DNA of 50,221 nt, from the NCBI GenBank assembly GCA_012840225.1, contig DULU01000047.1:1-50221 (forward strand), in the 5' to 3' direction. This document shows, piece by piece, positions 18,501-47,180 of this stretch. Each line of letters opens with the position of its first letter. Positions within the stretch are counted from its first letter, which is position 1. The translations under genes were made by a program, and so were the position numbers. The notes beneath the pieces were generated by a model. It was given only the letters and a program-made list of their open reading frames with translations. It did not search any database and was not told where the DNA came from. The stretch comes from Bacillota bacterium. Its GTDB lineage: Bacteria > Bacillota > Limnochordia > DTU080.

Positions 18501-18539
18501 TAAAAAACATATGATAAAAACAAGCGAGGAGTGAGCGCC

Positions 18540-20591: not shown

Positions 20592-20643
20592 GGGGAGCAT
20601 GTCAGGGAAGTCTGCTATAACAGGCCGGGCCGGGCGCCGGTTT

Positions 20644-22692: not shown

Positions 22693-22723
22693 CTTGTCAC
22701 CACTCCCAGTCTCCATATGGGCA

Positions 22724-22787
22724 AAACGGCCATGGGACGGACCGTTCATCGCCAACTAGCCGGCGAGTCCGGTACCCATGGCCGTTT
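22724..22787 (-). terminator. Inverted repeat downstream of the hydrogenase operon
   Basis: Perfect 13-base arms (22724-22736 and 22775-22787, AAACGGCCATGGG and complement) enclose 38 bases. On the minus strand the second arm ends in TTTT, so the structure can terminate the hydCDBA transcript before the GH127-type gene. The long loop makes it less typical. Confidence 0.55.
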
Positions 22788-24578: not shown

Positions 24579-24594
24579 ATCTGGTCTCTCCCGG

Positions 24595-26382
24595 TCACTG
24601 TCGCACCACAGCGCCAAATTTGCATGATTTTAAGCACTCACCACATTTGATGCAGCGGGTCTCGTCGATCACATGCACTTCCGTGCGCGCCCCCTGGATG
24701 CACTTCACCGGACACCGCCGGGCGCAGACGGTACAGCCGATGCATTTGTCGGGCAGGATATAATACCTGATCAGATCCTTGCAAACCCCGGCCGGACAAG
24801 CCCTGTCCATAATGTGAGCTTCGTATTCCTTGCGGAAATACCTGATGGCTGCCATCACGGGGTTGGGAGCCGTCTGCCCGAGGCCGCACAGCGAAGCCCG
24901 CTTCATGGCGAAACCGATCTCCTCGATCAGCTGCAGATCGTTCTCCCGGCCCTGCCCTTTGCTGATGCGGTCGAGGATGTCATAAAGCTTCTTGCCCCCC
25001 ACCCGGCAGGGAGCACATTTGCCGCACGACTCGTCGACGGTAAACGCCAGGTAGAACTTGGCTACATCCAGCATGCAGTCGTCTTCGTCCATGACGATCA
25101 TGCCGCCGGAACCCATGATCGAACCCAGTTCCGTCAGGTGTTCGTAATCGATGGGCACATCCAGATAGTCGGCCGTGATCATGCCGCCGGACGGACCGCC
25201 GGTCTGCACCGCCTTAAAAGCCTTGCCGCCCGCTATACCGCCGCCGACGGCATAGATGATGTCCTTGAGCGGGATGCCCATCGGCACTTCAACCAGGCCG
25301 CTGTTGGAAATCTTGCCGGTCAGGGCGAACACCTTGGTGCCCCTGGATTTCTCCGTGCCGATCTTGGCAAACCATGCGCCGCCTTTGCTGATGATCACCG
25401 GCACATTGGCATATGTCTCGACATTATTAATCACCGTGGGCTTGCCCCACAGGCCCTTTACCGCCGGGAAAGGCGGCCTCGGCCGCGGCATGCCTCTCTC
25501 CCCTTCAATGGAGGCGATCAGGGCCGTCTCCTCGCCGCAGACGAAGGCGCCGGCCCCCAGGCGCAGCTCGATATCGAAGGAGAAACCGGAGCCCAGGATG
25601 TTCTCGCCGAGGAGCCCGTATTCATGAGCCTGGGCGATGGCCTTCTCCAAGCGGCTGATGGCCAGGGGATACTCCGCCCGCACATAGATATAACCCTTCT
25701 GGGCGCCGCAGGTATGGCCGGCGATGATCATCGCCTCCAAAATGGAGTGGGGGTCCCCCTCAAGGACGCTCCGGTCCATATACGCCCCGGGGTCACCCTC
25801 GTCACCGTTGCAGACGATGTATTTCACATCGCTTTTGACCTCTTTCGTGAAGAGCCACTTGCGCCAGGTCGGGAAACCGGCACCGCCCCGTCCCCGCAGG
25901 CCGGAGAGGCGCAACTCCTCGATCACCTGCTCCGGGGTGATGTCGAAGAGCACTTTCTCCAGGGCCAGGTAACCGTCGCGGGCGATATAATCGTCGATGC
26001 ATTCCGGATCGATGATACCGCAGTTGCGCAGCACCACCCGGAACTGCTTTTGTATGAAGTCCAGACCCAGGCGCACCAGCCGCTTGTTTTCTTCGGATTG
26101 ATATAGCAGCCTGTCGATCTGCCGGCCCTGGCAGATATGCTCATCCACCAGTTCGGCGATATCCTTCTGCTCCACGCCGACATAAAAGGCCTCTTCAGGC
26201 AGGACTCTCACCGCCACGCCGGTATCGCAAAACCAGTGAGAGCCGGCTTTGACCACCTGCACCTTGTCGGTGAGGTCCCGGGCGTCGAGCGCCTGCCGCA
26301 GACTTTCGCAGAACTCTTTCACCTGGTTTTTGTCATCGCTGTTAGGGTTTTTATAAACAAGAATAAATCTATTATATGCCAT
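24595..26382 (-). CDS. hydB: NADH-binding flavoprotein subunit of the [FeFe] hydrogenase (NuoF-like)
   Basis: This 595-residue NuoF-like subunit carries the FMN/NAD site. GRGGAGFP is at 164-171, with CNGDEGDPGAYMDR and GAGAFVCGEETAL, then an SLBB region, ESCGKCAPCRVG with a distal SLCGLG for a [4Fe-4S], and a C-terminal pair of [4Fe-4S] motifs (CIGCTVCARRCP and CIKCGECLKSC). The N-terminal thioredoxin-like domain, which in many HydB proteins binds [2Fe-2S], has only Cys25, Cys52 and Cys84 in unlike positions and lacks the ligand pattern. The start overlaps the preceding gene by 11 bp, so translation is coupled. Confidence 0.94.
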   Translation of the reverse strand: MAYNRFILVYKNPNSDDKNQVKEFCESLRQALDARDLTDKVQVVKAGSHWFCDTGVAVRVLPEEAFYVGVEQKDIAELVDEHICQGRQIDRLLYQSEENKRLVRLGLDFIQKQFRVVLRNCGIIDPECIDDYIARDGYLALEKVLFDITPEQVIEELRLSGLRGRGGAGFPTWRKWLFTKEVKSDVKYIVCNGDEGDPGAYMDRSVLEGDPHSILEAMIIAGHTCGAQKGYIYVRAEYPLAISRLEKAIAQAHEYGLLGENILGSGFSFDIELRLGAGAFVCGEETALIASIEGERGMPRPRPPFPAVKGLWGKPTVINNVETYANVPVIISKGGAWFAKIGTEKSRGTKVFALTGKISNSGLVEVPMGIPLKDIIYAVGGGIAGGKAFKAVQTGGPSGGMITADYLDVPIDYEHLTELGSIMGSGGMIVMDEDDCMLDVAKFYLAFTVDESCGKCAPCRVGGKKLYDILDRISKGQGRENDLQLIEEIGFAMKRASLCGLGQTAPNPVMAAIRYFRKEYEAHIMDRACPAGVCKDLIRYYILPDKCIGCTVCARRCPVKCIQGARTEVHVIDETRCIKCGECLKSCKFGAVVRQ

Positions 26383-32933: not shown

Positions 32934-33797
32934 ATGAAAGAGAGCGACAAAGGAAGACCCGCCCCCGGCAGCCCGGCTATGATCGACCAGTTGCTTTGGC
33001 AAAATCAGCAGCAGTCGGTATATCAGCACATCGCCTCCCAACTGGGCACGGAACGGGGCAAGGCCAGGGAACTGGCCCGCTTTCTGCTGGAAAACCCGGA
33101 AGGCATCCACCTCAGCGCCAAAGAGATAGCCGAGCGCTGCGACACCAATCCCTCCACCCTTTTGCGTCTTTGCCGGCGGCTGGGCTACCGCAATTTCACG
33201 GAGCTGAAAGCCGAGATGCAGAGAGCGGCCGGCAGAGAGTGTGATGATGGCCGGGAGGAAGCGGCCGGTCGGCTGAAAACACCGGTCTATCAGGTGACAA
33301 AGAAGTGCCTGATGATGATTTTGGACACCTTCGGGACCATCGACTGCCGGAAGGTGGAGCAGGCCGTCACCGCCATTTTGGCAGCCCCGGCCATTGTGGT
33401 CTTCGGCGCCGGTCTCTCGGCCGGCATCGGCAAGATCATGCACATCCGCCTGCGCAAACATTCCCTCCCCAGCCAGTTCACCAGCGATGCCGAGGAAGCG
33501 CTGACCAGCCTCTCTTCCGGTTCCAACCTGCTCTTTTGCATATCCTATATGGCAGTGAACCCCACCGTGGTCCGCCTTTTGACGCAAACCAAGCGCAAAG
33601 GGGTGCCGAGCATTTTGCTGACCAATCTGCCGGGAGCCTCGGCCGGGAGATATGCCGACATCACCATCACCACCAATGTCACCAGCATCAAAACCGACGG
33701 CTATGATGTCTTGTGCCGCAGCTCCCAATTGTTGGTCATTGCCCTGCTGGATGAGTTGCTTGCCGCCGCCCGGGCCGAGGCCCTGCCGCCGCCATGA
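32934..33797 (+). CDS. MurR/RpiR-family transcriptional regulator
   Basis: This 287-residue DNA-binding protein has an N-terminal HTH (about 25-100, LSAKEIAERCDTNPSTLLRLCRRLGYRNFTELK) and a C-terminal SIS phosphosugar-binding domain (about 125-275, AIVVFGAGLSAGIGKIMHIRL, SNLLFCISYMAVNPTVVRLL, KGVPSILLTN, ADITITTN). RpiR proteins sense sugar phosphates and control sugar catabolism. GAGGAG is close to the ATG. It is divergent from the solute-binding protein gene, its likely target. Its last 62 bp overlap the end of the opposing MATE gene. Confidence 0.93.
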   Translation: MKESDKGRPAPGSPAMIDQLLWQNQQQSVYQHIASQLGTERGKARELARFLLENPEGIHLSAKEIAERCDTNPSTLLRLCRRLGYRNFTELKAEMQRAAGRECDDGREEAAGRLKTPVYQVTKKCLMMILDTFGTIDCRKVEQAVTAILAAPAIVVFGAGLSAGIGKIMHIRLRKHSLPSQFTSDAEEALTSLSSGSNLLFCISYMAVNPTVVRLLTQTKRKGVPSILLTNLPGASAGRYADITITTNVTSIKTDGYDVLCRSSQLLVIALLDELLAAARAEALPPP

Positions 33798-35133
33798 TAT
33801 TCTTCCATTTGCCGGAGCGAAAGCGGGCTATCACAAAGAACATGCGCACGAAGACATCGACCGTCATGGCCAGCCAGACACCGGGCAAACCCCAGCCGCA
33901 CCACAGGCCGAAGATAAAAGAGAGCACCAGGCGTATCCCCCACTGGCCCACCCCGGTGATATACATCACCCATTTGGTATCGCCGGCACCGCGCAAAGCC
34001 CCGCACAAGACCATGATGTAACTGAAGGGAATCTGGCTGAAGGCTACGATGCGCAGGCAAAAGGCAGTGAGCCGCCGCACCTCCAGGTCGGTGGTGAAAA
34101 TGGCCGCCAGTGGCTCGGCAAAGAGGAAAAAGACCACTCCCATCGCCGCCATAAAATAGGTGGCATATCGGTTGGTCTGCCAGCCATAGGCCGCCGCCTC
34201 CTCGGAACGCTTGGCCCCAAGCGACTGGCCCACCAAGGTGGTGGCGGCCACCCCAAAGCCGAAACCGGGCATGAAAGAGAGCGATTGTACGGTCATCACC
34301 AGGCCGTTGGCGGCGATGGCCACCGTGCCCATGCTGGCCACGAGCATGGTATATATCAGCTGGCTGCCTTGGCGCAGCAGCTGTTCGCCGGCCGCCGGGA
34401 AACCGATCTTGAGAATCGGCTTGAGGATCGTCCAGTCGGGTTTGTATTTTACTTCCCTGGTCAGGCGCAGCCGGCCGATCTTGGGATTGACGATCACCCA
34501 GACGGAAAGCAAGCCGCCCACCGCTCTGGAGAGGCCCTGCGCCAGGCAGGCGCCCAGCAGGCCCCATCCGGGCAGCGGCCCCAGGCCGTAGGTGAGCGGA
34601 TAAGAGAACAAAATCTGGACGCCGTTCGTCGCCCAGGAGATGAACATGGGGGTTTTTGTGTCGCCGGCGCCACGCAAAGCGCCACCGATAAAAAACATCG
34701 GCAGACCGAGCACCATGGAACCGAAGATGATGCGGAGATAGAGCACCCCGGCCTCCACCACGGCCGGATCCCCTTTCCCCTGCACGAGAAAGAGGATCAT
34801 ATAGCGGCTGACGCAGATGCCGGCCAAGGCCAGGATGGCACCGCCCGCCACCCCGGCCACCAGCGACTGAGCCAACACCTGGTGCGCTGCCTTTTCGTCG
34901 CCGGCGCCGATATTCCGGGCTACCAGCACCGTGTTGCCCACGGAGAGAGCCGAAACGGCACCGATCAGCAAAAACATGATGCGATTGGCCAGCCCCACCC
35001 CGGCCAGTTCGGCTGCCCCTAGATGACCGACCACCATCTGGGTGATGATGCCGGCGAAAGTCTGCGACAACATCTGACCCATGACCGGAAGGGAGAGGTT
35101 CATTATGGAAGAGCGTAGTTGGCGATTATCCAA
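33736..35133 (-). CDS. MATE-family multidrug/metabolite exporter
   Basis: This 465-residue inner-membrane protein has 12 predicted helices in two homologous halves: LGAAELAGVGLANRIMFLLIGAVSALSVGNTVLVARNIGAG, then GALRGAGDTKTPMF in the first half and GALRGAGDTKWVMY in the second. MATE proteins export cationic drugs or metabolites in exchange for Na+ or H+. The start is a TTG seven bases after AAGAAGG; an ATG ten codons later is the alternative. A 9-bp inverted repeat lies 19 bp upstream and may be an operator. The 3' end overlaps the RpiR-type gene by 62 bp. Confidence 0.93.
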   Translation of the reverse strand: MDNRQLRSSIMNLSLPVMGQMLSQTFAGIITQMVVGHLGAAELAGVGLANRIMFLLIGAVSALSVGNTVLVARNIGAGDEKAAHQVLAQSLVAGVAGGAILALAGICVSRYMILFLVQGKGDPAVVEAGVLYLRIIFGSMVLGLPMFFIGGALRGAGDTKTPMFISWATNGVQILFSYPLTYGLGPLPGWGLLGACLAQGLSRAVGGLLSVWVIVNPKIGRLRLTREVKYKPDWTILKPILKIGFPAAGEQLLRQGSQLIYTMLVASMGTVAIAANGLVMTVQSLSFMPGFGFGVAATTLVGQSLGAKRSEEAAAYGWQTNRYATYFMAAMGVVFFLFAEPLAAIFTTDLEVRRLTAFCLRIVAFSQIPFSYIMVLCGALRGAGDTKWVMYITGVGQWGIRLVLSFIFGLWCGWGLPGVWLAMTVDVFVRMFFVIARFRSGKWKNIMAAAGPRPGRRQATHPAGQ

Positions 35134-35180: not shown

Positions 35181-35398
35181 ATGCTTTTTACTATCCATAT
35201 CAAAGAATACTTCCCCCGCACCGGTGCCAATCCTGCCTTGTAGCACGAAAATGTGACATGTCGGCACATGATCATGACCAATAGCCGGCCCAAATGCTTC
35301 GGCTCGCCGGGAAGCGATTTCCGAAAAATAAATAGGATTCATCGTCTCTTTCTCGAATGAGTGGTTTTGTAACAAAAAATACTTGCGGAGGTGCATCC

Positions 35399-36412
35399 AT
35401 GGCAGGTCGTACATACGGAGTAGGGATCATCGGTGCCGGTTGGGTTTCAGGCGAACATATCAGAGCCTTTACGGTCAACCCGTTTACCGAGGTGAGAGGT
35501 ATATATAGCCGGCGGCGGGAAACGGCGGCGGCCAAACTGCAGGAAACCGGGGTAACCGCCAAAGTACACGACAGCCTCGACAGCCTTTTGTCCGACCCGG
35601 ACATCGACATCATCTCCATCTGCTCTCCTCCCAACTTGCACTGCGAGCATGTTGTGGCAGGTGCAGCGGCCAAAAAGCATATGGTGATCGAGAAACCGGT
35701 GGCCATGAACGCCGCCGAACTGCAAAAGATGCAAAAAGCGGTCCGGGAAGCCGGAGTGACCACCATCGTCAGTTTTGTGTTGCGCTGGAATCCCATGTTC
35801 GAAACCACAAAGCAGCTGATTGCCGACGACGCCATCGGCGACATCATGTACGCCGAATGCGACTATGTGCACTGGATCGGGCCTCATTATGGCCAATATA
35901 CCTGGTCCAGGACCAAAGCCGCCGGCGGCAGCAGCCTTCTTTCCGCCGGTTGCCACGCGGTCGATGCCCTCAGGTGGTTTGTCGGTGAGGTGGAGGAAGT
36001 GTGTGGATATAAAGCCAAGGGCTTCCCCGGCTCTGATTATGAGTTCGAACCGAATATCACCGCCATACTGAAGTTCAAAAGCGGTGCCGCCGGCAAAGTG
36101 GCTTCCATTCTGGAATGCCGGACGCCTTATATCTTCAATGTCGCGCTCTACGGCACCAAAGGTACCATCCGCAACAATAAGCTTTATTCCCACAAATTCC
36201 CCGGCCAGTCCAACTACCTGGAATACCCCACCATCCTGCCGGACAGCGGGGACGTTACCCACCATCCCTTCAGGGGACAGATCAACTATTTCGTCTCCTG
36301 TATCCAGAACGGCAGCAAGCCCCATGCCAATCTGGACGATGCCGCCAAGACCATGGCTCTCTGCTACGCCATCGATGAAGCGATCGCTACCGGTCGCCCG
36401 GTAAAGTTATAA
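35399..36412 (+). CDS. Gfo/Idh/MocA family oxidoreductase
   Basis: The ATG at 35399 follows GCGGAGG. The 337-residue enzyme has the Rossmann loop IIGAGWVSGEH, SICSPPNLHCEH, the catalytic IEKPVAMN, and AGGSSLLSAGCHAVDALRWFVGEVEEV in the substrate domain, typical of sugar or cyclitol dehydrogenases with bound NAD(P). Length is normal. It is a single-gene unit ended by a strong bidirectional terminator, facing the GH20/DegT operon, and may serve the same pathway. Substrate unknown. Confidence 0.92.
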   Translation: MAGRTYGVGIIGAGWVSGEHIRAFTVNPFTEVRGIYSRRRETAAAKLQETGVTAKVHDSLDSLLSDPDIDIISICSPPNLHCEHVVAGAAAKKHMVIEKPVAMNAAELQKMQKAVREAGVTTIVSFVLRWNPMFETTKQLIADDAIGDIMYAECDYVHWIGPHYGQYTWSRTKAAGGSSLLSAGCHAVDALRWFVGEVEEVCGYKAKGFPGSDYEFEPNITAILKFKSGAAGKVASILECRTPYIFNVALYGTKGTIRNNKLYSHKFPGQSNYLEYPTILPDSGDVTHHPFRGQINYFVSCIQNGSKPHANLDDAAKTMALCYAIDEAIATGRPVKL

Positions 36413-36555: not shown

Positions 36556-37914
36556 TTATTCATTCCAGAGCTCTTTGGCCAATTCCACCGCCGTGGTCAC
36601 CATCAGTTCGCCGGTTCCCGGCACATACCTGGCGGAGCGGTTTTCGTAGCCGCCTTCCTCATAGGCACGGGCGGCCGGGATATAGCCGTGATAACCGTTG
36701 GCCAGATTGGCCATGAAAGCATAGGGTGCCGGCACTTCCTTTTTGAAGGCCAGCCCCAGCTCGCAGGACATCTCTCCCGGGCAGCCGGAGATGAGCACCG
36801 GCCCGATGCGCAGGCAAATCACTTCCGCTTCGGCCTGCGGGGGCTCTTCGGCATAGAAGGAGGCATAGCTGAGATTGGCCTCAGCCCGCCTGGCTTCCAT
36901 GCGCCCTGTCCTGGGATCGGCCAGGGCGGCTTTGCTTTCCGCCACAAACTGCTCCAGCGGGATGCGCTGTAAGGTGATGCGGCGGGCAGCGGCCCCGAGG
37001 GCGGAGCAAGGCTCAGGCTTCAGGGTGACGGCTACCCTGGCGGTCTCGGCCGCCAAACCTACACCGATCTGGTAGGTGGCTCCGGGCCAACCCGGTTTGC
37101 CGGAGAACACATTGAAATGGTTGATATCGCCGCTCGCCGTATTGACCACCACCACGCCGAGCTGGTTGACACCTCCGCCGTCGGGCGGAAGTTGGATGCC
37201 GCCGGGACCGCGGCTTTGCGCTTCCGTTTTGCCGAGCGGCATGCCGGCGAAGATGCGGCGCAAGGTGGCGGCCGCCACCCCGACCCAGTCGGCGGAGAAC
37301 ATGCTGCCGCCCACCGTATCGCAGTGGCAGGAAAAGCTGGTCAGTATGCCCACCGGCCGCCCTTCCAGGTCGTCGAAGCGCAGCACCACAACCTCAGGAT
37401 CCACCGGACCGGCCGCTTCGATAATATCCGGATTGCCCAAGCCGGGGTTGGTAAAGACGCGGCCGTTCTTCATGCGGTAGCGCCGGTTGAAGGCCACTCC
37501 CGGCAGGCTACCCCGCCCGGCAGCCACCTTCACCTCCGTCCGGCGGCGGAAAGCCATCTCCACCGCTCCGGCAGTGAGGCGCACCCAGGTGGTCATGGCC
37601 TCATCATCCCGGTGGAAACCGGGTTTGGCCACCGTGATCGGCCCGGTGTGGGTATGAGTGGCGGCGAGCAGGATATGATCCCCCGGAATGCCGGTAGCGG
37701 CCGTCACCCGCTCTTTCATGGCGGCGACATCGGCATCGGGGACATATATCAGATCGGTGACTACCAAAGCAACATGAACATCTCCCTCCGACACCACCAG
37801 CGCCCTGGAATACAGATCGTCCAGAATCCCCTCGGCCCGGCGGGCCGTAAAATCCCCCGCCATTCCTGTTCCGAGAGGAGGAGTGACAACTACTTCACCG
37901 AAACCGGCTTTCAT
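36556..37914 (-). CDS. Neutral/alkaline ceramidase-like domain protein
   Basis: This 452-residue protein has the N-terminal neutral non-lysosomal ceramidase fold: AGFGEVVVTPPLGTGMAG, VVTDLIYV, LLAATHTHTGP (zinc-type His at 87-92), LTSFSCHCDTVGG and VVVNTASGDINHF, where ceramidases have their catalytic Ser/GD element. There is no signal peptide, so it acts in the cytosol, unlike secreted ceramidases. In bacteria this fold is common in carbohydrate clusters with unknown amidase-like or ester-cleaving roles. It is the last gene of a four-gene operon (34 bp after the GH20-type gene), and a deacylase for an N-acylated sugar is a plausible inference. GAGGTG precedes the ATG. Confidence 0.82.
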   Translation of the reverse strand: MKAGFGEVVVTPPLGTGMAGDFTARRAEGILDDLYSRALVVSEGDVHVALVVTDLIYVPDADVAAMKERVTAATGIPGDHILLAATHTHTGPITVAKPGFHRDDEAMTTWVRLTAGAVEMAFRRRTEVKVAAGRGSLPGVAFNRRYRMKNGRVFTNPGLGNPDIIEAAGPVDPEVVVLRFDDLEGRPVGILTSFSCHCDTVGGSMFSADWVGVAAATLRRIFAGMPLGKTEAQSRGPGGIQLPPDGGGVNQLGVVVVNTASGDINHFNVFSGKPGWPGATYQIGVGLAAETARVAVTLKPEPCSALGAAARRITLQRIPLEQFVAESKAALADPRTGRMEARRAEANLSYASFYAEEPPQAEAEVICLRIGPVLISGCPGEMSCELGLAFKKEVPAPYAFMANLANGYHGYIPAARAYEEGGYENRSARYVPGTGELMVTTAVELAKELWNE

Positions 37915-37947
37915 CGGCAGGCACCTCGTTTCTCTTTTTATATAACC

Positions 37948-40263
37948 TCACACACCGCTTGATCCGTCTACATCCGCAAATGGCAAGGCGAGGTATTCCG
38001 CCGTCTCCATGGCAGTGCGGATGATCAACCGCACCTCATGCAAAAACGGCAGGACGGCGCTCCAGTTGCGCATGGTATGCGGCACGAGGTAATGAGGTTT
38101 GATCATCTCAAACACCAGAGCCACTTCATGCTGGTAGCGCAAAGCTTCGGCGATATGTTGCTCGGCTTCCTTCAACAGGGCGGCGACATCCGTCGCAGCT
38201 CCCGCTTGGGCTGCGTCTCCCGGCTGGGACGCAGCTCCCGCCTGGGACGCAGCTCCCGCCGCTTGGCGGGCTTTCTCATAGGCCTCGTAAGCGGCGAGGA
38301 TATGGATGAATATCTGCACCAATCCTTCTGTCCTCTTCGCTTCGGCGAGATATTGCAGCACAGCCTCCGGCCGGTTTACCGGGCGGGAAGCCAAAGCCGT
38401 CAAGCCTGCAGTAGCCTTGGCAGCGATGTCCGCCCGATGCGCCAATTTCTCCTTCAGCTCTTTCTCGGTGAGGAGCCGCTTCATAACTTCCTTCGGATAT
38501 TGGCGGGGATAGGGTTGGTTGGGGTCTACATAGTTATAAACGTAAGCATCGAGCACATGGACCAAAGGCGCCGTCGTGCTGGTGATGGCGGAGAGCTCGT
38601 CCAGCGCTCTCATGGCTTCCAACCCCTCCTGCCACCATTGGGGACCAAAGATGGAGCGGGCGTACTTCTCTTCCCAGGCCGGGAGCCCCTCCACCGCCTT
38701 CAGATTCCAGCCGCAGTCGGCGAGGAGCCGGTGATGATTGTCGAAAGCGGGGTCATAGGCGCTGTAGGCCTCGATACCTTCCGCCCCCTGAGCTGCTCCC
38801 AACCTGCTCATGCGCTCGATGTTCACCAGATGGTTGCGCAACGCCGACCAGAAGAAGTAGCCGCCCATCGGCGTGACGCGCCTGCGCAGGCCGAGTTCAG
38901 GTTTGATGGTGGTGAATGGTTCAGCTTTATAACACCACCAGTTGAGGATGAGGTTTTCTTTCAACCCTCTCTCTTCCAGCCGGCGGACGAACTCCTCGTT
39001 CAGCAGACCCATCCGCTCCAGTTGGTCGTGCCAGACGGTGATGTGGCGGATGCCTATATCCTTCAACCCCTGCAACAGCCGGAAGAGGTAATCGAGGAAG
39101 AGTTGATTCATGTCGGCCTGGCGGCAGGAGGGGCATTCGCACCAGGGATCGACCCGCTGGTGCGGATCATGCATGTAACCTCCCATGATCGGCCAGACTT
39201 CATCCAGCCCCAGGTGTATGTGGTCGACGCCGTGCGGCAGGAGATAGCGCTCCACCGTCTCGCCCAGCAACTGCAACATGATCTCCACGGTGCGCGGGTT
39301 GGAAAGGCAGAAACTATACCCTTTCGCCCGGCCGTGGGCATCTTTGGCCGAGGTTTCCGGGTAGAGGCGAGGGATCAGGGTGTTGTGCCCCAGACTGTTG
39401 AAATGCGGCCGGACGGTGACATTGCGCTTTTTGCCATAGGCCACCACCTCGCCGAAGAAATCGCCGACAAACATGGCCGGCAGGTAGGTCAGAGAGCGCC
39501 AGCCGCCGCTCTTGCCGGAATAATAAGTGATGGTCTTCTCGGTGCGCAGATCGGGGAATTTCTTGAAGGGGGTGAGGAGAAATTCGGTTAAGCGGCCGTC
39601 ATATTGAATTCTCCAGCAACCATATGTCCCCACTCCCAACAGATTCATCTTCAGAGCGGCCATCTCATCGATCAGGTGCTGCCAGTCCTCAAGGCGCATC
39701 AGGTCCGGGCCCCACTTCGATTCCACATAAAGCCCTCTCTCCTTGAGGTCCGGCCAGTCCCAGACGGTTACGGCCGGAGCCCACACCGTCATGCCGTCGC
39801 AAGAAAGGAGCTGGGCCAAGGTTTGCGCCGCATAGTAAGTGCCGCTGCCGCCCATACCTTTGAGGTTGATGCCGCCTGAGGAAATATCCAGCACATAGGC
39901 TTCCGCCTGAGAAGTGCATCCGGCCTCTACCAGAGGCTCGCCGAGCTCCGGGGTGATGAACGGTCTGGCACATTCCCCGATGCGGATGGGAAGAGGGCGA
40001 GCAGAGGCCGCCTCCGGCTCAACCGGCGGTCCATAAAAATACCGCAGAGGTAATCTGATACCTGCGGCGTTTTCCACAGCGGCGGCAATGACCTGGGCGG
40101 CAAGCTTTTCCATGTCGGAAGCATCGGGCGGGATATATATCTCAGCCATTGTCCTGCCGTCTTTGGTGGCCAGGGCTACGGCCGGGGCGCCGGCCTCCTG
40201 GCCGGCTTGGCCGACGATGCGCTGAGGCTGCGGAAACAGTGGAGGAATATTCTGACACAGCAT
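37948..40263 (-). CDS. GH20-type beta-N-acetylhexosaminidase-like glycosidase
   Basis: The ATG at 40263 follows AAGGGGGA. The 771-residue protein has a GH20b-like N-terminal domain (about 30-180, with GGINLKGMGGSGTYYAAQTLAQLL) and a TIM barrel (about 185-530) with WPDLKERGLYVESKWG, MNLLGVGTYG, VRPHFNSLGH and HIHLGLDEVWP, the Asp-Glu pair of GH20. GH20 enzymes cleave terminal GlcNAc/GalNAc by substrate-assisted catalysis. A C-terminal helical region holds an Ala/Gly/Ser/Gln tandem repeat (encoded at about 38197-38270). No signal peptide. It overlaps none of its neighbours: 20 bp from the DegT stop. Confidence 0.85.
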   Translation of the reverse strand: MLCQNIPPLFPQPQRIVGQAGQEAGAPAVALATKDGRTMAEIYIPPDASDMEKLAAQVIAAAVENAAGIRLPLRYFYGPPVEPEAASARPLPIRIGECARPFITPELGEPLVEAGCTSQAEAYVLDISSGGINLKGMGGSGTYYAAQTLAQLLSCDGMTVWAPAVTVWDWPDLKERGLYVESKWGPDLMRLEDWQHLIDEMAALKMNLLGVGTYGCWRIQYDGRLTEFLLTPFKKFPDLRTEKTITYYSGKSGGWRSLTYLPAMFVGDFFGEVVAYGKKRNVTVRPHFNSLGHNTLIPRLYPETSAKDAHGRAKGYSFCLSNPRTVEIMLQLLGETVERYLLPHGVDHIHLGLDEVWPIMGGYMHDPHQRVDPWCECPSCRQADMNQLFLDYLFRLLQGLKDIGIRHITVWHDQLERMGLLNEEFVRRLEERGLKENLILNWWCYKAEPFTTIKPELGLRRRVTPMGGYFFWSALRNHLVNIERMSRLGAAQGAEGIEAYSAYDPAFDNHHRLLADCGWNLKAVEGLPAWEEKYARSIFGPQWWQEGLEAMRALDELSAITSTTAPLVHVLDAYVYNYVDPNQPYPRQYPKEVMKRLLTEKELKEKLAHRADIAAKATAGLTALASRPVNRPEAVLQYLAEAKRTEGLVQIFIHILAAYEAYEKARQAAGAASQAGAASQPGDAAQAGAATDVAALLKEAEQHIAEALRYQHEVALVFEMIKPHYLVPHTMRNWSAVLPFLHEVRLIIRTAMETAEYLALPFADVDGSSGV

Positions 40264-40283
40264 GGATGATCCCCCTTTTCTGC

Positions 40284-41567
40284 TCAAGCTTTATAAGCTT
40301 CAGCTACTTTGAAAAACGCCTCGATCATCATCTGGATATGTCTTTCCTCATACACCGGGTGCACCGGGAAGCTGAAGGTTCTCTCCTCCAACCAGGCGGC
40401 GTTGGGACAATGCACCTGATCGTACCTGACGCTCTTGGGATCGGTCAGCGGATCCCGGAACGGATAGCGGGCGGCACCGAAGCCGTTGTGTTCTCTAAAC
40501 GCCTTCTCTTTATAGCTTTGCGGCCAGAGTGCGAAGACCACCGGCACTCCCTCCGCTTCCAGCGCCGTCATGAACGTCTTCTTGTCGCAGGTGAGAGCTT
40601 CCAGGTTGAGCACGATCGGGTAAAGCCAGAAAGCGTTCACCTTGCCGTCGACATTATGCGGCGGCAGGTACTGGACGAATGGCGAACCTTGCAGCGCCTT
40701 GGTGAGCATTTCCCCGTTGCGCCGCCTGTTCTTCAGGTTCCAGGAGTCCAGGCGCTCCAGCTCGCAGAGGCCGATGAGGGATTGCATCTCCGTCATGCGG
40801 TAGTTGAAACCGACGCGGTTATGGATATAAAGCAGCTTCGCCTCCAGTTCCAAAAGGCGCAGCCTTTCCTTGACATCATAACCATGATCCCGGAAAGAGC
40901 GGCACTCCCAGGCCAATGCTTCGTCGTCGGTGATGACGCAGCCGCCTTCACCGCCGGTGGTGAAATGCTTGCTCTGGCAGAAGCTGAAGCAGCCGGCATG
41001 GCCGATGGTGCCCACCTTGCGCCCATTATAGAGAGCTCCGTGAGCCTGGGCGCAATCTTCCACCACCGCCAGACCGTGGCGCCGGGCAATATCCATGATG
41101 GCATCCATGTCGCAGGGAATGCCATATAGATGTACAGGAATGATGGCTTTGGTCTTTTTGGTTATCTTGCTTTCTATGGATGCCGGATCGATGGTGTGCG
41201 TCTCGCGGCGCACATCGGCAAACACCGGTATGGCGCCGGCCTGGCAGACGCAGAACGAGGAAGCGATAAAGGTGTAGGAAGGGGTGATCACTTCATCGCC
41301 CGGACCGATGCCCAGGGCGGCCAGAGCGGTATGCAGAGCGCTGGTGCCGTTGGAGGTGGAGATGCCGAACCGCACTCCGTTCCAGGCAGCAAATTTCTGC
41401 TCGAACTCCACCCCGTAGGTGCCGGTCCAATAGTTCACTTTACCTGTGCGCAAGGGCTCTGTGGCCGCCTGGATGGTCTGCTCCGTAAACTGCGGCCACA
41501 TGGGGAACGGTTCCTTTGTTACCGGGGTTCCCCCGTTGATCGCCAACTGGTTATTTTTTTGTGCCAT
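40284..41567 (-). CDS. DegT/DnrJ/EryC1/StrS-family PLP aminotransferase
   Basis: The ATG at 41567 follows GGGAGAG. The 427-residue enzyme has the sugar aminotransferase signature: NGTSALHTALAALGIGPGDEVITPSYTFIAS, VPVFADV-type strand, VVEDCAQAHGA and SFCQSKHFTTGGEGG with the PLP Lys. Such enzymes add an amino group to keto-sugars (nucleotide-bound) or to keto-cyclitols. The adjacent Gfo/Idh dehydrogenase could make the keto precursor, as in known scyllo-inosamine or 3-aminosugar pathways; here this is inference. It lies 18 bp downstream of that gene. Confidence 0.93.
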   Translation of the reverse strand: MAQKNNQLAINGGTPVTKEPFPMWPQFTEQTIQAATEPLRTGKVNYWTGTYGVEFEQKFAAWNGVRFGISTSNGTSALHTALAALGIGPGDEVITPSYTFIASSFCVCQAGAIPVFADVRRETHTIDPASIESKITKKTKAIIPVHLYGIPCDMDAIMDIARRHGLAVVEDCAQAHGALYNGRKVGTIGHAGCFSFCQSKHFTTGGEGGCVITDDEALAWECRSFRDHGYDVKERLRLLELEAKLLYIHNRVGFNYRMTEMQSLIGLCELERLDSWNLKNRRRNGEMLTKALQGSPFVQYLPPHNVDGKVNAFWLYPIVLNLEALTCDKKTFMTALEAEGVPVVFALWPQSYKEKAFREHNGFGAARYPFRDPLTDPKSVRYDQVHCPNAAWLEERTFSFPVHPVYEERHIQMMIEAFFKVAEAYKA

Positions 41568-41603
41568 CTTTTCTCTCCCTTTCACTTTGGTAATAATGTT
41601 AAT

Positions 41604-42647
41604 TTAGTTGGTGGGCACGCTCACTCTCCTCCCGGTGCGTGCCGCTTCGTAGCAGGCTAAAACGACTTGCAAGTTACGCCTTCCCAAAGCGGCGCTTATT
41701 TCCGGTTCCTTATTATTTTCAATGCTTTCCCCGAAGCTTTCCACTTCAGCCTGATAAGTATTGATCTCTTGGTAGCTCAAGGTGGTCATTTGGCTTTGCC
41801 GCTGCTGCCGGGCATCATACCCTTTGTCCGCCTGTTCCAGCCGGGCCGTCACCGTGCCTCCCGCTCCCTGCCCGATAGTCCCGGAACAGACCACGCTGCC
41901 TTTCGTCCCGTAGACTTCCAGGATGTTCAAGGCCGCCATATCGGGAATGTTGAAGTTGTTGTCCACTATGCCTTTGGCCCCGTTGGCAAAGTGCACCAGC
42001 ACCAGCGAGGAATCATCCACGGCATAATCATGAGTGAGAACGGAAATGTCGGCCATGACGCTCTCAATGGGACCGAACAGCATTTCCAGCAGATCAAGGC
42101 AATGGGTGCCCATATCCATCAAAGCCCCGCCTCCGCCCAGCGCCGGGTCCTGACGCCAGGCACCCGGTATGGGAGGATACCAGCAGGTAAGCTGAGCCCG
42201 GGCCAGGACAGGTTGACCCAGCTCCCCCTCCTGCAGCATTTTGTGGAGCAGCCTGTGCGCTCCATGGAAGCGCATCATGTAACCGGCGCCAAGCTTGACG
42301 CCATGTTCGGCGCAGACGGCCATCATCTTGTCCACCTGATCCAGGCTCAAGGCGAGCGGCTTCTCGCACAGCACATGCTTGCCCTGTCTGGCGGCGGCCA
42401 GCACCGCATCATAATGGTGCGCCACGGGGGTGGCGACATACACGGCATCGACATCCTGGCGCTTGAGCAGCTCGCCGGCATCTGTATACCAAGCCGCGCC
42501 GAACTGTTCCCCCACCGCTTTGGCCCGTTCCGCAGAGATATCCATCACCGCCGTCAACCTGGCATTCTTCGCTTTCATAATGCCTTCGGGAATGGTGCGC
42601 CGATAGGCGATCCCTCCGGCACCAATCACTCCCCAGTTAATGGTCAT
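41604..42647 (-). CDS. Gfo/Idh/MocA family oxidoreductase
   Basis: This first gene of the four-gene operon has 347 residues and starts at an ATG after GGGAGG. It has a Rossmann loop GVIGAGGIAYRR, YVATPVAHHYDAV, CEKPLALSLDQVD with the catalytic Lys, and ALMDMGTHCLDLLEMLFG with the active-site His in the C-terminal domain. It resembles NAD-dependent sugar/inositol dehydrogenases. With the DegT enzyme downstream, oxidation then transamination of a sugar or cyclitol hydroxyl is a reasonable pathway. Substrate unknown. Confidence 0.92.
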   Translation of the reverse strand: MTINWGVIGAGGIAYRRTIPEGIMKAKNARLTAVMDISAERAKAVGEQFGAAWYTDAGELLKRQDVDAVYVATPVAHHYDAVLAAARQGKHVLCEKPLALSLDQVDKMMAVCAEHGVKLGAGYMMRFHGAHRLLHKMLQEGELGQPVLARAQLTCWYPPIPGAWRQDPALGGGGALMDMGTHCLDLLEMLFGPIESVMADISVLTHDYAVDDSSLVLVHFANGAKGIVDNNFNIPDMAALNILEVYGTKGSVVCSGTIGQGAGGTVTARLEQADKGYDARQQRQSQMTTLSYQEINTYQAEVESFGESIENNKEPEISAALGRRNLQVVLACYEAARTGRRVSVPTN

Positions 42648-42829: not shown

Positions 42830-42882
42830 GGATCAGTCAGTCGGTCATTCAGTCGGTCAGTCTACCAGTCAGTCGGAGGCCC
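42830..42882. repeat. CAGTCGGT-type short tandem repeat
   Basis: About 50 bp are built from degenerate copies of CAGTCGGT at the 3' end of the ROK gene and just beyond it. The final codons of the ROK protein are part of the repeat. The flanking 42770-42830 has a similar CGGCNNCTTGGC-like pattern. No function apparent. Confidence 0.6.
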
Positions 42883-44146
42883 GGTCGAGGACGCTCGAGG
42901 CATAGCTCACCTCCACGCTGGGCATCACCCGAGCCAGAGCCAGCGAGATGGCGCCGTAAAGTTCGGCATCCCGGTCCAGGCTGGATAAAAGGATCGGTGG
43001 CGGCGTGCACAGGAGTTCCTTCACCCGGTTGTTGACCTTCTGCAGAATCAGCCGGCGCGCTTCCCCTAATTCCCCCCCAATAATCACCTCTTCAGGATTG
43101 ATAAACGAAACAATATTAACAATAACCCGGGCCAGCGCCTCACATAAGTTCTCCACCAAAGAGAGAGCCAGTTCATCTTCGGCCACCGCCGCTTTGAATA
43201 TCATTTCGGCGGTCAGCCGCTCAGGATCATTGTCGCACCAGGTCGAGAGGAGGGAGGACCGGCCCTTTTCCGCCCACATGCTGCCGGCGGCGTCCACCAG
43301 TGCCGACAAGCCTACCGCTCTTTCCAGGTAGCCACCCCGCTCGGCCAGCGCCTGCGCAGGCAGAGTATCAGCAACGATCATATCGCCGATCTCGCCGGCC
43401 GCCCCGTCGGCACCCCGGTATACCCGCTCGTCCAGCAGGATGCCGCAGCCGATGCCGGCCCCTATGGTGATGCGCACCAGGTGGCGCACTCCCATGCCGG
43501 CCCCCCGCCAGGCCTCACCCAAAACAGCCATAAAAGAATCGCCGTCGATGACCACCGGCACGGAAAACTCCTTCTCCAGCACCTCCTGAATGGGATAGTT
43601 TTCCCATCCCGGCAGATGCCGGCTGCGCACCACGATGCCGCCTTCCATGCGGGTGATGCCGCATACCGCCACACCGATGCTGCACAGCTTCCCGGCAGGG
43701 ATGTTGGCATCGCGCAAAGTGCGGTAGATGAGCAGGATTAACTCTTTGTCGAGCTGGAATTCCTTCTTGGAGTGATCGTCGGACTTCGCTTTTTCTTTCT
43801 CCGGCGGCCTTTTGACCTCTCTTTTCAGCAATATCTGCCCGTTGAGATCGGCCACGGCCGCCATCAGGACAGTGTCGCCCACCCACGCTCCGACAGTGAA
43901 GGCGCGCCGGGCATTAAACTTAAGTAACAGCGGTTTGCGACCCCCGCTGGAAACTCCTGTGCCGATCTCCATGATCCACTTCTCGGCCAGCAGCTGGTCG
44001 ATGATTTTCGAAACGGTCGGCGGGCTGATGTGCAGTTCCTTGGCAATGTCGGCCCTGGAGATGTGCTCCCGCGCCTTGATCAACTCAAGGATCATGGATT
44101 TGTTAATCTCTTTCATCAAACGAGGATTGCCTGTCGGCATGCGCAT
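42869..44146 (-). CDS. ROK-family transcriptional regulator
   Basis: From the ATG at 44146 it has 425 residues. The N-terminal winged HTH (about 12-75: NKSMILELIKAREHISRADIAKELHISPPTVSKIIDQLL) is followed by a ROK sugar-kinase fold (IGVAVCGIT, GDSFMAVLGEAWRGAG, RITIGAGIGCGILLDERVYRGADGAAGEIGDM). The usual ROK zinc motif (CxCGxxGC) is replaced by ALAERGGYLE, with no Cys, so zinc binding is lost as in some XylR/NagC-type repressors. It likely senses a sugar and controls the nearby carbohydrate genes. A GTG at 44158 is an alternative start. An XylR-like inverted repeat lies just upstream, suggesting autoregulation. Confidence 0.92.
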   Translation of the reverse strand: MRMPTGNPRLMKEINKSMILELIKAREHISRADIAKELHISPPTVSKIIDQLLAEKWIMEIGTGVSSGGRKPLLLKFNARRAFTVGAWVGDTVLMAAVADLNGQILLKREVKRPPEKEKAKSDDHSKKEFQLDKELILLIYRTLRDANIPAGKLCSIGVAVCGITRMEGGIVVRSRHLPGWENYPIQEVLEKEFSVPVVIDGDSFMAVLGEAWRGAGMGVRHLVRITIGAGIGCGILLDERVYRGADGAAGEIGDMIVADTLPAQALAERGGYLERAVGLSALVDAAGSMWAEKGRSSLLSTWCDNDPERLTAEMIFKAAVAEDELALSLVENLCEALARVIVNIVSFINPEEVIIGGELGEARRLILQKVNNRVKELLCTPPPILLSSLDRDAELYGAISLALARVMPSVEVSYASSVLDRASD

Positions 44147-44163
44147 ATGACATTTCACACCTT

Positions 44164-44204
44164 GACTTTGTTTAGATACTTTATTCGCTTTATAAAACAA
44201 AGTC
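44164..44204. promoter_or_regulatory. XylR/ROK-type inverted repeat overlapping the ROK gene promoter region
   Basis: Perfect 10-base arms GACTTTGTTT (44164-44173) and AAACAAAGTC (44195-44204) flank 21 AT-rich bases. The arms resemble the Bacillus XylR operator half-sites (TTAGTTTGTTT...). On minus the repeat includes TTGTTT and TATAAA/TATCTA elements that could be the promoter, 18 bp from the start codon. Binding would repress the ROK gene itself. Confidence 0.65.
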
Positions 44205-44320
44205 CCTCCCCGGCTCCCCTCGATAATCCTGCCGAAAAAAAGCAAGATGAAGCCGGGCGAAGGAACCATAGGAGCAGGGGGCAAGGGCGGGGGCGGGAGC
44301 GGAGCGGGAAGGAATCGATA

Positions 44321-44424: not shown

Positions 44425-45174
44425 TCAGGACGGATTGGCGGAGATGGCGGCGGTGCGAGACTGCTTCCCCGCTTTGTCCACCACTCCATAGCCCTCCACG
44501 GAAAGTCGGCGTTCAATGCGGCCAACCAGGTGGGCTATGACGCTCGTCATCAATAGATAAAGCAAGGCGGTTAAGCCATAGACTTCCACCGGCCTGAAGG
44601 TGCGGGTGACCACAATCTGCGAGCGCCTCAGCAATTCCTCCAGGGCAATGACGGAAACCAGCGACGAATCCTTCAGCATGGCGATGAATTCGTTGCCGAG
44701 CGGCGGGATGATGCGGCGGAAAGCCTGCGGCAGGATGATCAAAGTCATCACCTGGCGGGGGCGCAGGCCGATAGCCAGTCCGGCTTCCCTTTGCCCCCGT
44801 TCGATGGATTGTATGCCGGCCCGCACGATCTCGGCGATATAGGCCGCCGAGTTCATGCTCAAAGCGGCGATGGCCGCCGGCCAGCGCTCAATGGATGTGC
44901 CTAACAGAAAAGGCAGTCCCATATACACCAGCAATAGCTGCACCAACAGCGGTGTACCCCGGAAAAAGGTGATATAGGCGGATGCCGCATAGCGCAGGAC
45001 CGGAAAGCGCGAGAGCCGGCCCAGGGCTATCAACGTGCCGAATACCAGACCTATGCCGACCGAAGAGACGGTCAAGGCCAAGGTGACGCCGGCACCGGCC
45101 AAAATATATTCAAAATACTGGCTGAGCAGAGCCCGCACCCCGCTGATATATGCTATAACGGCATTTGTATCCAA
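44425..45174 (-). CDS. Polar amino acid ABC transporter permease
   Basis: This 249-residue inner-membrane protein has five predicted helices and the His/Glu/Gln permease signature: GLVFGTLIALGRLS, AYITFFRGTPLLVQLLLVYMGLPF, the EAA loop SAAYIAEIVRAGIQSIERGQREAGLAIGLRP, and IILPQAFRRIIPPLGNEFIAMLKDSSLVSVIALEEL. A single permease would act as homodimer. The start is a TTG at 45174. It follows the substrate-binding protein gene after 77 bp that contain a hairpin; the ATPase gene is on the other strand at 46347. Confidence 0.94.
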   Translation of the reverse strand: MDTNAVIAYISGVRALLSQYFEYILAGAGVTLALTVSSVGIGLVFGTLIALGRLSRFPVLRYAASAYITFFRGTPLLVQLLLVYMGLPFLLGTSIERWPAAIAALSMNSAAYIAEIVRAGIQSIERGQREAGLAIGLRPRQVMTLIILPQAFRRIIPPLGNEFIAMLKDSSLVSVIALEELLRRSQIVVTRTFRPVEVYGLTALLYLLMTSVIAHLVGRIERRLSVEGYGVVDKAGKQSRTAAISANPS

Positions 45175-45199
45175 AACCGCACCAATCTCCCATCCGCCG

Positions 45200-45236
45200 T
45201 CACATTAGGCTGGTGTAATGTAAATGTGTAATGTGA
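45200..45236 (-). promoter_or_regulatory. Hairpin between substrate-binding protein and permease genes
   Basis: Arms TCACATTA (45200-45207) and TAATGTGA (45229-45236) pair perfectly around 21 bases that themselves repeat GTGTAATG. Such intercistronic hairpins commonly stabilise the upstream binding-protein mRNA and lower permease expression. No T-run follows. Confidence 0.5.
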
Positions 45237-45251
45237 TGCTTGTCGTCTACT

Positions 45252-46013
45252 TCACTTCACGCCGAACCATTTCTGGTAGATGGCGTCATAGGTGCCGTCC
45301 ACCTTCAGCTGGGCCAGCGCCAGGTTGATCTTCTTCAGCAGATCGGTGCGCCCTTTCTTGACGGCGATGCCGTAATATTCCACGGTGAAGGGCTCGCCCA
45401 CAATTTCCGTCTGGCCTGGATTGGCCGCCATCTCCTCAATCGCCACCATCTCGTCGGCCACCACGGCATCCACCTGGCCGGCTTTGAGAGCCAGGAAAGC
45501 CTCCGGCATGGTCTGGAAGGTCAAGATCATGGCTCCTTGCACTTTCTCGGCGGCAAAATGACCGGTGGTGCCGATCTGCACACCCACCCGTTTACCTTTC
45601 AGATGGGCCGGCTCGCTGATGCCTTTGCTACCCTTGCGCACGGCGATCACCTGGCCGGTGCTGAAATAGGGATCGGAGAAGCTGATGGCGGCGGCTCTTT
45701 CATCGGTGATGGTCATGGCCGAGATGATGACATCATAGTTGCCGGTGATCAAACCGGGAATGATGCCGTCCCAGGCCGTATTGATGATCTGTACCTGAAC
45801 GCCCATGACTTTGCCGATAGCCCGGATCAAATCCATATCGAAACCGGTAGGTTCCTTGGTCTTATCATCTATGAATTCAAACGGCGGATAGGTGATGTCC
45901 GATCCGACTTTCAGCACTTGCTGCGCCCACGCCTGTCCCGATCCAACGGCCAGGCACAACAGGCATAAAAGCACAAACGACAACGGCTTGATGAATGCAA
46001 CCATTTTCTTCAT
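45252..46013 (-). CDS. Amino acid ABC transporter substrate-binding protein
   Basis: The ATG at 46013 has GGGGG nine bases upstream; earlier in-frame starts lack a site and a signal peptide. The 253-residue protein has a Sec signal peptide (KPLSFVLLCLLCLAVGSGQAWA), then family 3 binding-protein motifs: LKVGSDITYPPFEFIDDKTKEPTGFDMDLIRAIGK, ITDERAAAISFSDPYFSTGQVIAVRKG, LKGKRVGVQIGTTG and GIAVKKGRTDLLKKINLAL. The Arg/Asp ligand-binding residues point to a polar amino acid. A Cys lies in the signal (LLCLLC), but no clear lipobox cleavage. Confidence 0.94.
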   Translation of the reverse strand: MKKMVAFIKPLSFVLLCLLCLAVGSGQAWAQQVLKVGSDITYPPFEFIDDKTKEPTGFDMDLIRAIGKVMGVQVQIINTAWDGIIPGLITGNYDVIISAMTITDERAAAISFSDPYFSTGQVIAVRKGSKGISEPAHLKGKRVGVQIGTTGHFAAEKVQGAMILTFQTMPEAFLALKAGQVDAVVADEMVAIEEMAANPGQTEIVGEPFTVEYYGIAVKKGRTDLLKKINLALAQLKVDGTYDAIYQKWFGVK

Positions 46014-46346
46014 ATTAATATACCCCCAATCGCAGCTTTCACCATCCTCCCGCCCACCGCCCGCCACCCGCCACCCGCTGCCGGCTGTGAGCAGGATCAG
46101 GCACCAGGCGTCGGGCGTCAAACGTCAGGCGGTGAGGTAGGATGTGCACAATTAATTCATTTCTTTTCTCTATACTCCCTCTCTCTACCTTCTCCTCCGG
46201 CTTAATCCATTTATGCCAAATGCCAAATGCTAAATGTTAAGGCCGACCATTGTCATAGATTAAAAGTTGCCGTAGAGAACTTGCAAAAAGGCGTTGGTTA
46301 TGTCATGTAGAATAGAAGGCAAGGAGTTTGAAGGGAGCAATCGATT
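46014..46346. other. Divergent intergenic region of the amino acid transporter
   Basis: 333 bp without a gene. It contains a CCCGCC/CCACCCG repeat (about 46050-46080), a CGTC-type repeat (46108-46135) and a 7-base tandem TGCCAAA (46213-46237). Plus-strand TTGCAA and TAGAAT elements near 46281-46315 are too far apart for a strong promoter. AAGGGAG is the ribosome site of the ATPase gene. Confidence 0.4.
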
Positions 46347-47180
46347 TTGGCGGGGATGGTTTCAAGACAGATAAAGGAAAAAGTTGGAGCATATACGGGA
46401 ACAAACAATCATAGCATTCCGGCGGAGGTAAAGGCAGCGAATGCCTCTCCGATAATACTCTGCGAAGATGTTCATAAATGGTACGGCCAGTTTCATGTGC
46501 TGAAAGGGATCTCGATCGCTATAGAAAAAGGGGAAAAGGTCGTCGTCTGCGGACCTTCCGGTTCGGGCAAATCCACCTTCATCCGCACCCTGAACCGGCT
46601 GGAAGACTACCAAAAGGGGCGCATCATCATAAACGGCGTAGAACTTACCCCGGAAATGCGCAACATCGAAGCCATCCGCCAGGAGACCGGCATGGTCTTC
46701 CAGCACTTTAACCTTTTCCCCCATTTAACCGTACTGCAGAATATCACCCTCGGCCCCTGCCGGGTGCGGCAGATGCCCAAGAAAGACGCCGACGAGCTGG
46801 CCTACAGCCTGCTGGAGCGGGTGGGCATTAAAGAGCAGGCCCAGAAATACCCGCACCAGCTTTCCGGAGGGCAGCAGCAGCGGGTGGCCATCGCCCGGGC
46901 GCTGGCTATGCAGCCGCAGGTGATGCTGTTCGACGAGCCCACCTCGGCCCTGGACCCGGAGATGATCAAAGAGGTCCTCGATGTCCTGCGGGAACTGGCC
47001 TATTCGGGCATGACCATGATCGTGGTCACCCATGAGATGGGCTTCGCCAGGGAGATCGCCGACCGCATGGTCTTCTTCGATCAAGGGCTCATCGTGGAAC
47101 AAGCGCCGCCGACAGAATTCTTCGACTCGCCGAAGGAAGAGCGAACTAGACTCTTTTTGTCGAGGATCCTGCATCATTAG
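46347..47180 (+). CDS. Polar amino acid ABC transporter ATP-binding protein
   Basis: The TTG start follows AAGGGAG at nine bases. The 277-residue ATPase has about 35 extra N-terminal residues before the fold, then Walker [10 protein letters not shown], the Q-loop [20 protein letters not shown], the signature LSGGQQQR, Walker [13 protein letters not shown] and the switch His in VVTHEMGFA. It is of the GlnQ/HisP type and should energise the permease and binding protein encoded divergently at 44425-46013. It is first in a plus-strand unit with the HisI-like and DUF3604 genes. Confidence 0.95.

Follow-up and report, generated by a model that had tools for sequence, protein, structure and literature searches.

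Four adjacent genes, coding for a Gfo/Idh/MocA-type oxidoreductase (GfoA), a DegT-family aminotransferase (DegT), a GH20-type glycosidase and a ceramidase-like protein (Cer), form a set that goes beyond chance, since it recurs in four other, distant genomes (G001, G084, G385 and SUG1201), and the larger set around it includes a PIG-L deacetylase and a NagB-like deaminase. With moderate confidence, we view the four genes as part of an amino-sugar pathway that is modular and mostly catabolic and would break down N-acylated, possibly diamino, sugars inside the cell. The parts are familiar and their combination appears undescribed, as the initial annotation of this DNA had supposed: our literature searches on the combined families returned nothing relevant in open-access papers, most subscription papers lying outside their coverage.

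The operon and its flanking genes

The window, a stretch of 50,221 nucleotides (contig DULU01000047.1, assembly GCA_012840225.1), belongs to a Bacillota genome of 3.55 Mb assembled in 154 contigs and 96.6% complete. On its minus strand lie, head to tail and preceded by the gene for a ROK-family regulator, GfoA (41604-42647; Pfam PF01408, PF02894 and PF22725), a sugar or cyclitol dehydrogenase/reductase; the PLP-dependent DegT (40284-41585; DegT_DnrJ_EryC1, 343.8 bits); the glycosidase, a divergent relative of beta-N-acetylhexosaminidases (37948-40287; Glyco_hydro_20, 46.5 bits against a cut-off of 22.3, and Glyco_hydro_20b, 41.7 against 26.1); and Cer (36556-37914; PF04734, Ceramidase_alk, 56.1 bits against 32.1). 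The open reading frames and a profile search, in which all four families exceed the curated Pfam cut-offs, confirm the gene content first read from this region, flanking genes included; none of the four proteins reaches an NCBIfam equivalog cut-off. The genes are separated by 18 bp, a 4-bp overlap and 33 bp, and are therefore likely to form a single transcription unit. Pattern matching detected no terminator-like sequence between them on this strand, and inspection of the four N-termini by eye revealed no signal peptide, in agreement with the earlier reading.

The ROK gene (42869-44284, minus strand; ROK and HTH domains) lies 221 bp upstream of GfoA. A start near position 44146 is suggested by its conserved N-terminus, and the protein is of the NagC kind. 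A ROK protein 48-50% identical to it adjoins PIG-L in two loci (L086 and L175), and more distant ROK proteins adjoin the set in four others (L026, L088, L089 and L145); that of the window is probably the regulator of the operon. Of the flanking genes initially tied to the operon, only this one recurs beside the set. GfoB, a second Gfo/Idh gene convergent with the operon (35357-36412, plus strand), has only general Gfo/Idh matches of about 23-30% elsewhere and no ortholog beside the set, and neither the MATE exporter (33736-35133) nor the RpiR regulator (32934-33797) recurs there. A polar-amino-acid-type ABC transporter at 44425-47180, whose ATPase gene is divergent from the permease and binding-protein genes, was considered as an importer and set aside, as none of the loci read showed it together with the set.

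Conservation of the set

Close relatives of the GH20-type protein are rare: counting the window's own genome each time, they occur in 3 of 6 genomes of the order, 3 of 73 of the class and 3 of 398 across the phylum sample. The nearest relatives recovered through this protein are the records DTU080 and AS08sgBPME_369, both uncultured Bacillota. A single-sequence GH20 query of the genome contigs gave no match, and the 50 loci of our scan of named genomes come from a seven-sequence GH20 alignment used as query. Cer lies directly beside the glycosidase in at least 15 of these 50 loci (plain BLAST, a lower bound). GH20 loci that also carry Cer, DegT and GfoA are L013 (DTU080), L026 (UBA5435), L027 (G385) and L053 (SUG1201, from another lineage), the last with all four genes directly adjacent and no other between them. 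The neighbourhood comparison initially suggested for the four genes thus comes out in favour of their being conserved together.

At the level of whole genomes, a DegT ortholog (E <= 1e-130) is present in 7 of the 398 sampled genomes of the window's phylum and in 18 of 31 GH20-bearing genomes of other groups (20 of 31 at E <= 1e-100), a difference whose Fisher P-value of 3e-18 is indicative only, as it sets a mixed-phylum collection against a sample from one phylum and takes no account of relatedness. The survey includes records of Armatimonadetes, Bathyarchaeota, Anaerolineae, Lentisphaerae, Latescibacterota and Clostridia. GfoA, Cer, ROK or PIG-L stands beside DegT in many, not all, of the contigs long enough to show it.

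The set is not indivisible. Four of the seven DegT genomes of the phylum sample lack the glycosidase, so that no single glycosidase step is obligatory. Conversely, G002 has GH20 and Cer together (L015), its best DegT match is only 41% identical, and it yields no DegT ortholog and no PIG-L at E <= 1e-45; the GH20 and Cer genes can therefore occur alone. The four genes are two separable pairs, GH20 with Cer and DegT with GfoA, that often travel together.

The aminotransferase and its oxidoreductase partner

The DegT orthologs form a tight group (52-80% identity). All 27 that we read share the PLP-lysine motif SFCQ[SN]Kxx[ST]TGGEGG, and in the alignment Lys206 of the window protein, which matches the family profile and retains the PLP lysine, sits in this invariant motif. 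Among the paralogs read, identity does not exceed 42% and other forms of the motif prevail, such as SFxxxKN; one in L141 (41% identity) has the similar SFCQDK. DegT falls below every cut-off of the named equivalogs PseC, ArnB, WecE and DesI, and it also matches scyllo-inosose aminotransferases. Its best solved relative is Pcryo_0638, a UDP-4-keto-6-deoxy-GlcNAc aminotransferase, that is, a UDP-sugar C4 aminotransferase (PMC8040287).

GfoA is the conserved partner of DegT: it lies beside the ortholog, or one to two genes away, in all seven DegT-bearing genomes of the phylum sample, and it is 50-62% identical to the orthologs found beside DegT in G001, G084, G385, G364, G073, G103 and G144. It matches both the Rossmann and the C-terminal profiles, and Lys96 of its EKP motif and His182 are invariant in the alignment. 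Its best solved relatives are 1,5-anhydrofructose reductases, and its best NCBIfam profile is inositol 2-dehydrogenase, at 156 bits far under the cut-off of 355.

The pair resembles WbpB/WbpE and NtdC/NtdA, which form 3-amino sugars: the families are the same, the genes are adjacent, and redox chemistry at a ring carbon is combined with transamination. Unlike those systems, the set described here comes with a glycosidase, deacylases, a NagB-like deaminase and importers, has a DegT and a GfoA that reach no equivalog cut-off, shows no nucleotide-sugar genes next to these two among the neighbours named, and probably works in the removing direction. The Bacteroides glycoside and disaccharide 3-dehydrogenases (BT_2158 and BT_2159 families) are Gfo/Idh oxidoreductases that, like GfoA in our proposal, act in glycan breakdown; GfoA is, however, far under their cut-offs, and we know of no aminotransferase or NagB-like partner in those systems.

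The glycosidase and the ceramidase-like protein

The GH20-type gene opens with a TTG that overlaps the DegT stop codon, its first in-frame ATG being at 40263. The Asp362-Glu363 dyad, which aligns with the GH20 dyad, and the active-site Arg184 are invariant in the family alignment. Profile matches in the PDB are to GH20 enzymes and, through a shared N-terminal domain, to GH84 O-GlcNAcases. The structural model is weak (pLDDT 71.6), and its top Foldseek matches are GH20 enzymes at a TM of about 0.3. Members of GH20 need a 2-acetamido group on their substrate.

The Cer model is much firmer (AlphaFold pLDDT 89.4, pTM 0.90), and Foldseek gives it credible matches only among neutral ceramidases (2zws, E = 4.8e-27, TMq 0.72). 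With these enzymes (2zws and 4wgk) it shares the fold and the zinc ligands: H87, H197, E381 and Y411 align with the His/His/Glu/Tyr residues that we take to be the ligands in PaCD. Yet the position of what is presumably the amidase-motif serine of PaCD is Asn265 in Cer, nearly invariant among 13 aligned family members, and Cer, at 452 residues against 646-688 for ceramidase chains, has no C-terminal region and opens straight in the catalytic domain, with no export signal. True ceramidase activity was discarded on account of the missing serine and export signal, and since both the serine and the C-terminal region are absent, Cer cannot strictly be called a ceramidase; the amide hydrolase first proposed stands as to fold and zinc ligands and falls short on those two features. 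Cer, a cytosolic zinc amidase-like protein, is probably a deacylase.

Seven more ceramidase-like copies are present in the same genome (on contigs C25, C77, C104, C56, C128, C67 and C18). Apart from the C25 copy, which lies beside PIG-L and NagB-like genes, they were not retained as members of the set. The seven represent an expansion, and several of them adjoin sugar-transport or ROK genes.

A PIG-L deacetylase and a NagB-like deaminase

Two further genes belong to the larger set. PIG-L (Pfam PF02585, 101 bits against a cut-off of 28.2) is closest to BshB1, at 145 bits under a cut-off of 182.5, and also resembles diacetylchitobiose deacetylase. The NagB-like protein, of about 305 residues, has no Pfam match and is recognised through PDB and NCBIfam profiles (TIGR00502, 58 bits against 236.9). 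In a MAFFT alignment with what we take to be the E. coli NagB sequence, it keeps the catalytic Asp72, His143 and Glu148, and the same positions appear in PDB alignments. In the phosphate site, the GGT loop is shortened and, in the close group, Arg172 and Lys208 are replaced; Asp141 is a Cys in the same group. As the residues aligned with the NagB phosphate site are lost, we infer that the substrate would be an unphosphorylated sugar.

Both genes stand next to DegT and GfoA in L013, L027, L088 and L089; in the last two, from genomes of 1.8-1.9 Mb, GfoA, Cer, ROK, DegT, NagB-like and PIG-L genes form one run with no GH20. PIG-L, NagB-like and GfoA genes are contiguous in L164 and L165. In the window genome, contig C25 carries the PIG-L and NagB-like genes, which diverge there from the Cer paralog closest to that of the window, and in SUG1201 the two are neighbours on a separate contig, so that the set is often found divided between two loci. 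NagB-like proteins at 73% identity or more occur in 6 of the 398 genomes, all six among the seven with DegT, an overlap expected by chance at about 1e-12 if relatedness is ignored; the seventh, G084, has a relative at 39%. PIG-L (E <= 1e-45) was found in 18 of 19 DegT-positive and 1 of 5 DegT-negative genomes tested (Fisher P = 0.002).

Proteins of the PRK02122 type also link NagB-like and PIG-L functions, but here these are separate genes, and the score is 49.6 bits against a cut-off of 384. The set likewise recalls the Nag pathway, with deacetylation followed by deamination and control by a NagC-type ROK protein. It differs from that pathway in the lost phosphate-site residues and the Asp141 to Cys change of the NagB-like protein, in its PIG-L and ceramidase-fold deacylases and in the additional DegT and GfoA.

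Direction of the pathway

In some genomes, sugar ABC importers, a NagA-type deacetylase and glutamate dehydrogenase stand beside the set, which points to catabolism. In G364 and G073, the neighbours of the NagB-like and Cer genes include sugar ABC importer genes and an amidohydrolase gene whose product scores above the NagA equivalog cut-off (233 against 225.65 bits), and GfoA starts 3 bp after the end of a glutamate dehydrogenase gene. NagB-like genes of more distant kinship have as neighbours an N-acylglucosamine 2-epimerase-like gene (L115), NagA, Gfo/Idh and sugar kinase genes (L116), or genes resembling NagA and glutamate dehydrogenase (L174). Among the neighbours of the core genes named by profile or homology, we saw neither a glycosyltransferase nor a nucleotide-sugar gene. 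Because only part of the neighbours were annotated by profile, many being listed by their first residues alone, this absence is an impression rather than a count and weighs less than the presence of catabolic genes. Overall, the neighbourhoods favour catabolism. Against the reading of the set as one catabolic pathway count G002, where GH20 and Cer occur with neither a DegT ortholog nor PIG-L, an AAC(3)-like N-acetyltransferase gene adjoining the set in G364 and G073, and a MATE exporter gene near the set in the window and near a DegT gene in L150.

The AAC(3)-like gene, of the aminoglycoside acetyltransferase kind (L114:9938-10816; also L113:1992-2852), lies beside the NagA equivalog, the sugar importer, Cer and the NagB-like gene. 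An AIR-synthase-like gene of the HypE/ThiL/SelD superfamily occurs near DegT in three loci (L143:9166-11560, L146:5129-7858 and L086:7412-8407), in the first two accompanied by genes resembling those for a DapA-type aldolase and an SDR; it may belong to the set as well.

Could the set build an amino sugar rather than dismantle one? GfoA and DegT would then install an amino group, probably a 3-amino group, on a sugar or cyclitol, PIG-L would trim an N-acetyl group in the way known from the synthesis of bacillithiol, mycothiol or aminoglycosides, and export of the product would follow, with GH20 and Cer remodelling or recycling it. The characterised Gfo/Idh and DegT pairs (WbpB/WbpE, NtdC/NtdA, KanD2/KanS2) are biosynthetic, and the proximity of PIG-L to BshB1, the acetyltransferase of L114 and the MATE gene of the window agree with such a role. 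We nevertheless hold it unlikely in view of the sugar importers, the NagA equivalog and the NagB-like deaminase in the neighbourhoods, the lack of glycosyltransferase or nucleotidyltransferase genes next to the core genes among the neighbours named, and a MATE gene that is not conserved with the set. Less plausible again is ordinary salvage of GlcNAc or chitobiose, in which GH20 and PIG-L would release GlcN for deamination by the NagB-like enzyme. DegT and GfoA would then form a side branch, serving for instance an aminocyclitol or kanosamine pool, whereas they are the most conserved and most constant members. The resemblance of PIG-L to diacetylchitobiose deacetylase and the NagA genes beside NagB-like genes in L114, L116 and L174 (the last with a gene reading like a true NagB) suit salvage; the lost phosphate-site residues and the absence of GH20 from several genomes that have the rest do not.

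Breakdown of an inosamine-type aminocyclitol, with DegT and GfoA interconverting inosamine, inosose and inositol while GH20 and PIG-L handle an attached GlcNAc, would account for the inositol 2-dehydrogenase profile of GfoA, the scyllo-inosose aminotransferase matches of DegT and the AAC(3)-like neighbour in L114. It is nonetheless quite improbable: both profiles stay under their cut-offs, no inositol-pathway genes were recognised beside the set, the best solved relative of DegT acts on C4 of a UDP-sugar, and the NagB-like protein implies a 2-amino aldose. Gene order and strand do vary, and the two pairs occur apart, as they would in a loose association of independent carbohydrate genes with no shared pathway, but repeated juxtaposition and genome-level co-occurrence across phyla disfavour this strongly, and we give it hardly any credence.

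A possible route for diacylamino sugars

On the catabolic reading, whose direction, order of steps, substrate and lack of phosphorylation we infer, an N-acylated amino-sugar glycoside would enter the cell, through a sugar ABC importer in those genomes that have one beside the set. The terminal 2-acetamido sugar would be freed by the GH20-type enzyme, and the ceramidase-fold amidase and PIG-L would take off the N-acyl groups. DegT could then pass the amino group of one ring position to 2-oxoglutarate, leaving a keto-sugar for GfoA to reduce with NADH; with glutamate dehydrogenase closing the loop, an amino group would be exchanged for a hydroxyl in a redox-closed cycle. The NagB-like enzyme would remove the C2 amino group from the unphosphorylated sugar, while sensing of the sugar and control of the operon would fall to the ROK protein. 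The scheme first suggested, in which an intracellular N-acylated amino-glycoside is trimmed, deacylated and deaminated or re-aminated, fits all that we found, except that the set is larger, including PIG-L and the NagB-like protein, and that the four genes make up two separable pairs.

Two deacylases, two deaminating systems and a GH20 enzyme needing a 2-acetamido group would be best explained by a diacylamino sugar, for example a 2,3-diacetamido-2,3-dideoxy-hexose, a suggestion drawn from the enzyme count. We advance more tentatively, as possible rather than probable, that this is an undescribed and widespread route for dismantling such sugars, for example those of bacterial or archaeal surface glycans, without phosphorylation, through the DegT, Gfo/Idh and glutamate dehydrogenase cycle and a NagB-like enzyme devoid of a phosphate site. 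O-antigens and surface glycans commonly contain diamino or other unusual N-acylated sugars, whose biosynthesis is well studied; to our knowledge, no breakdown pathway has been described for them. A conserved set seen in uncultured Bacillota, Armatimonadetes, Anaerolineae, Lentisphaerae, Latescibacterota and one archaeal (Bathyarchaeota) genome would give these sugars a fate. It would also give testable functions to the cytosolic ceramidase-like proteins, the DegT/Gfo pair and the NagB-like family, all of which are now generically annotated.

Other features of the window

Elsewhere in the window, genes for an FeFe hydrogenase catalytic subunit and a NuoF-like subunit (22833-26382) have an electron-bifurcating-type arrangement, and an enolase-superfamily protein and a GHL6/GH42-like protein are encoded at 17412-22755, with a GH127-like protein on the opposite strand. 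Two tandem outer-membrane efflux protein (OEP) genes at 5822-8459 suggest a two-membrane envelope in this Bacillota-related genome.
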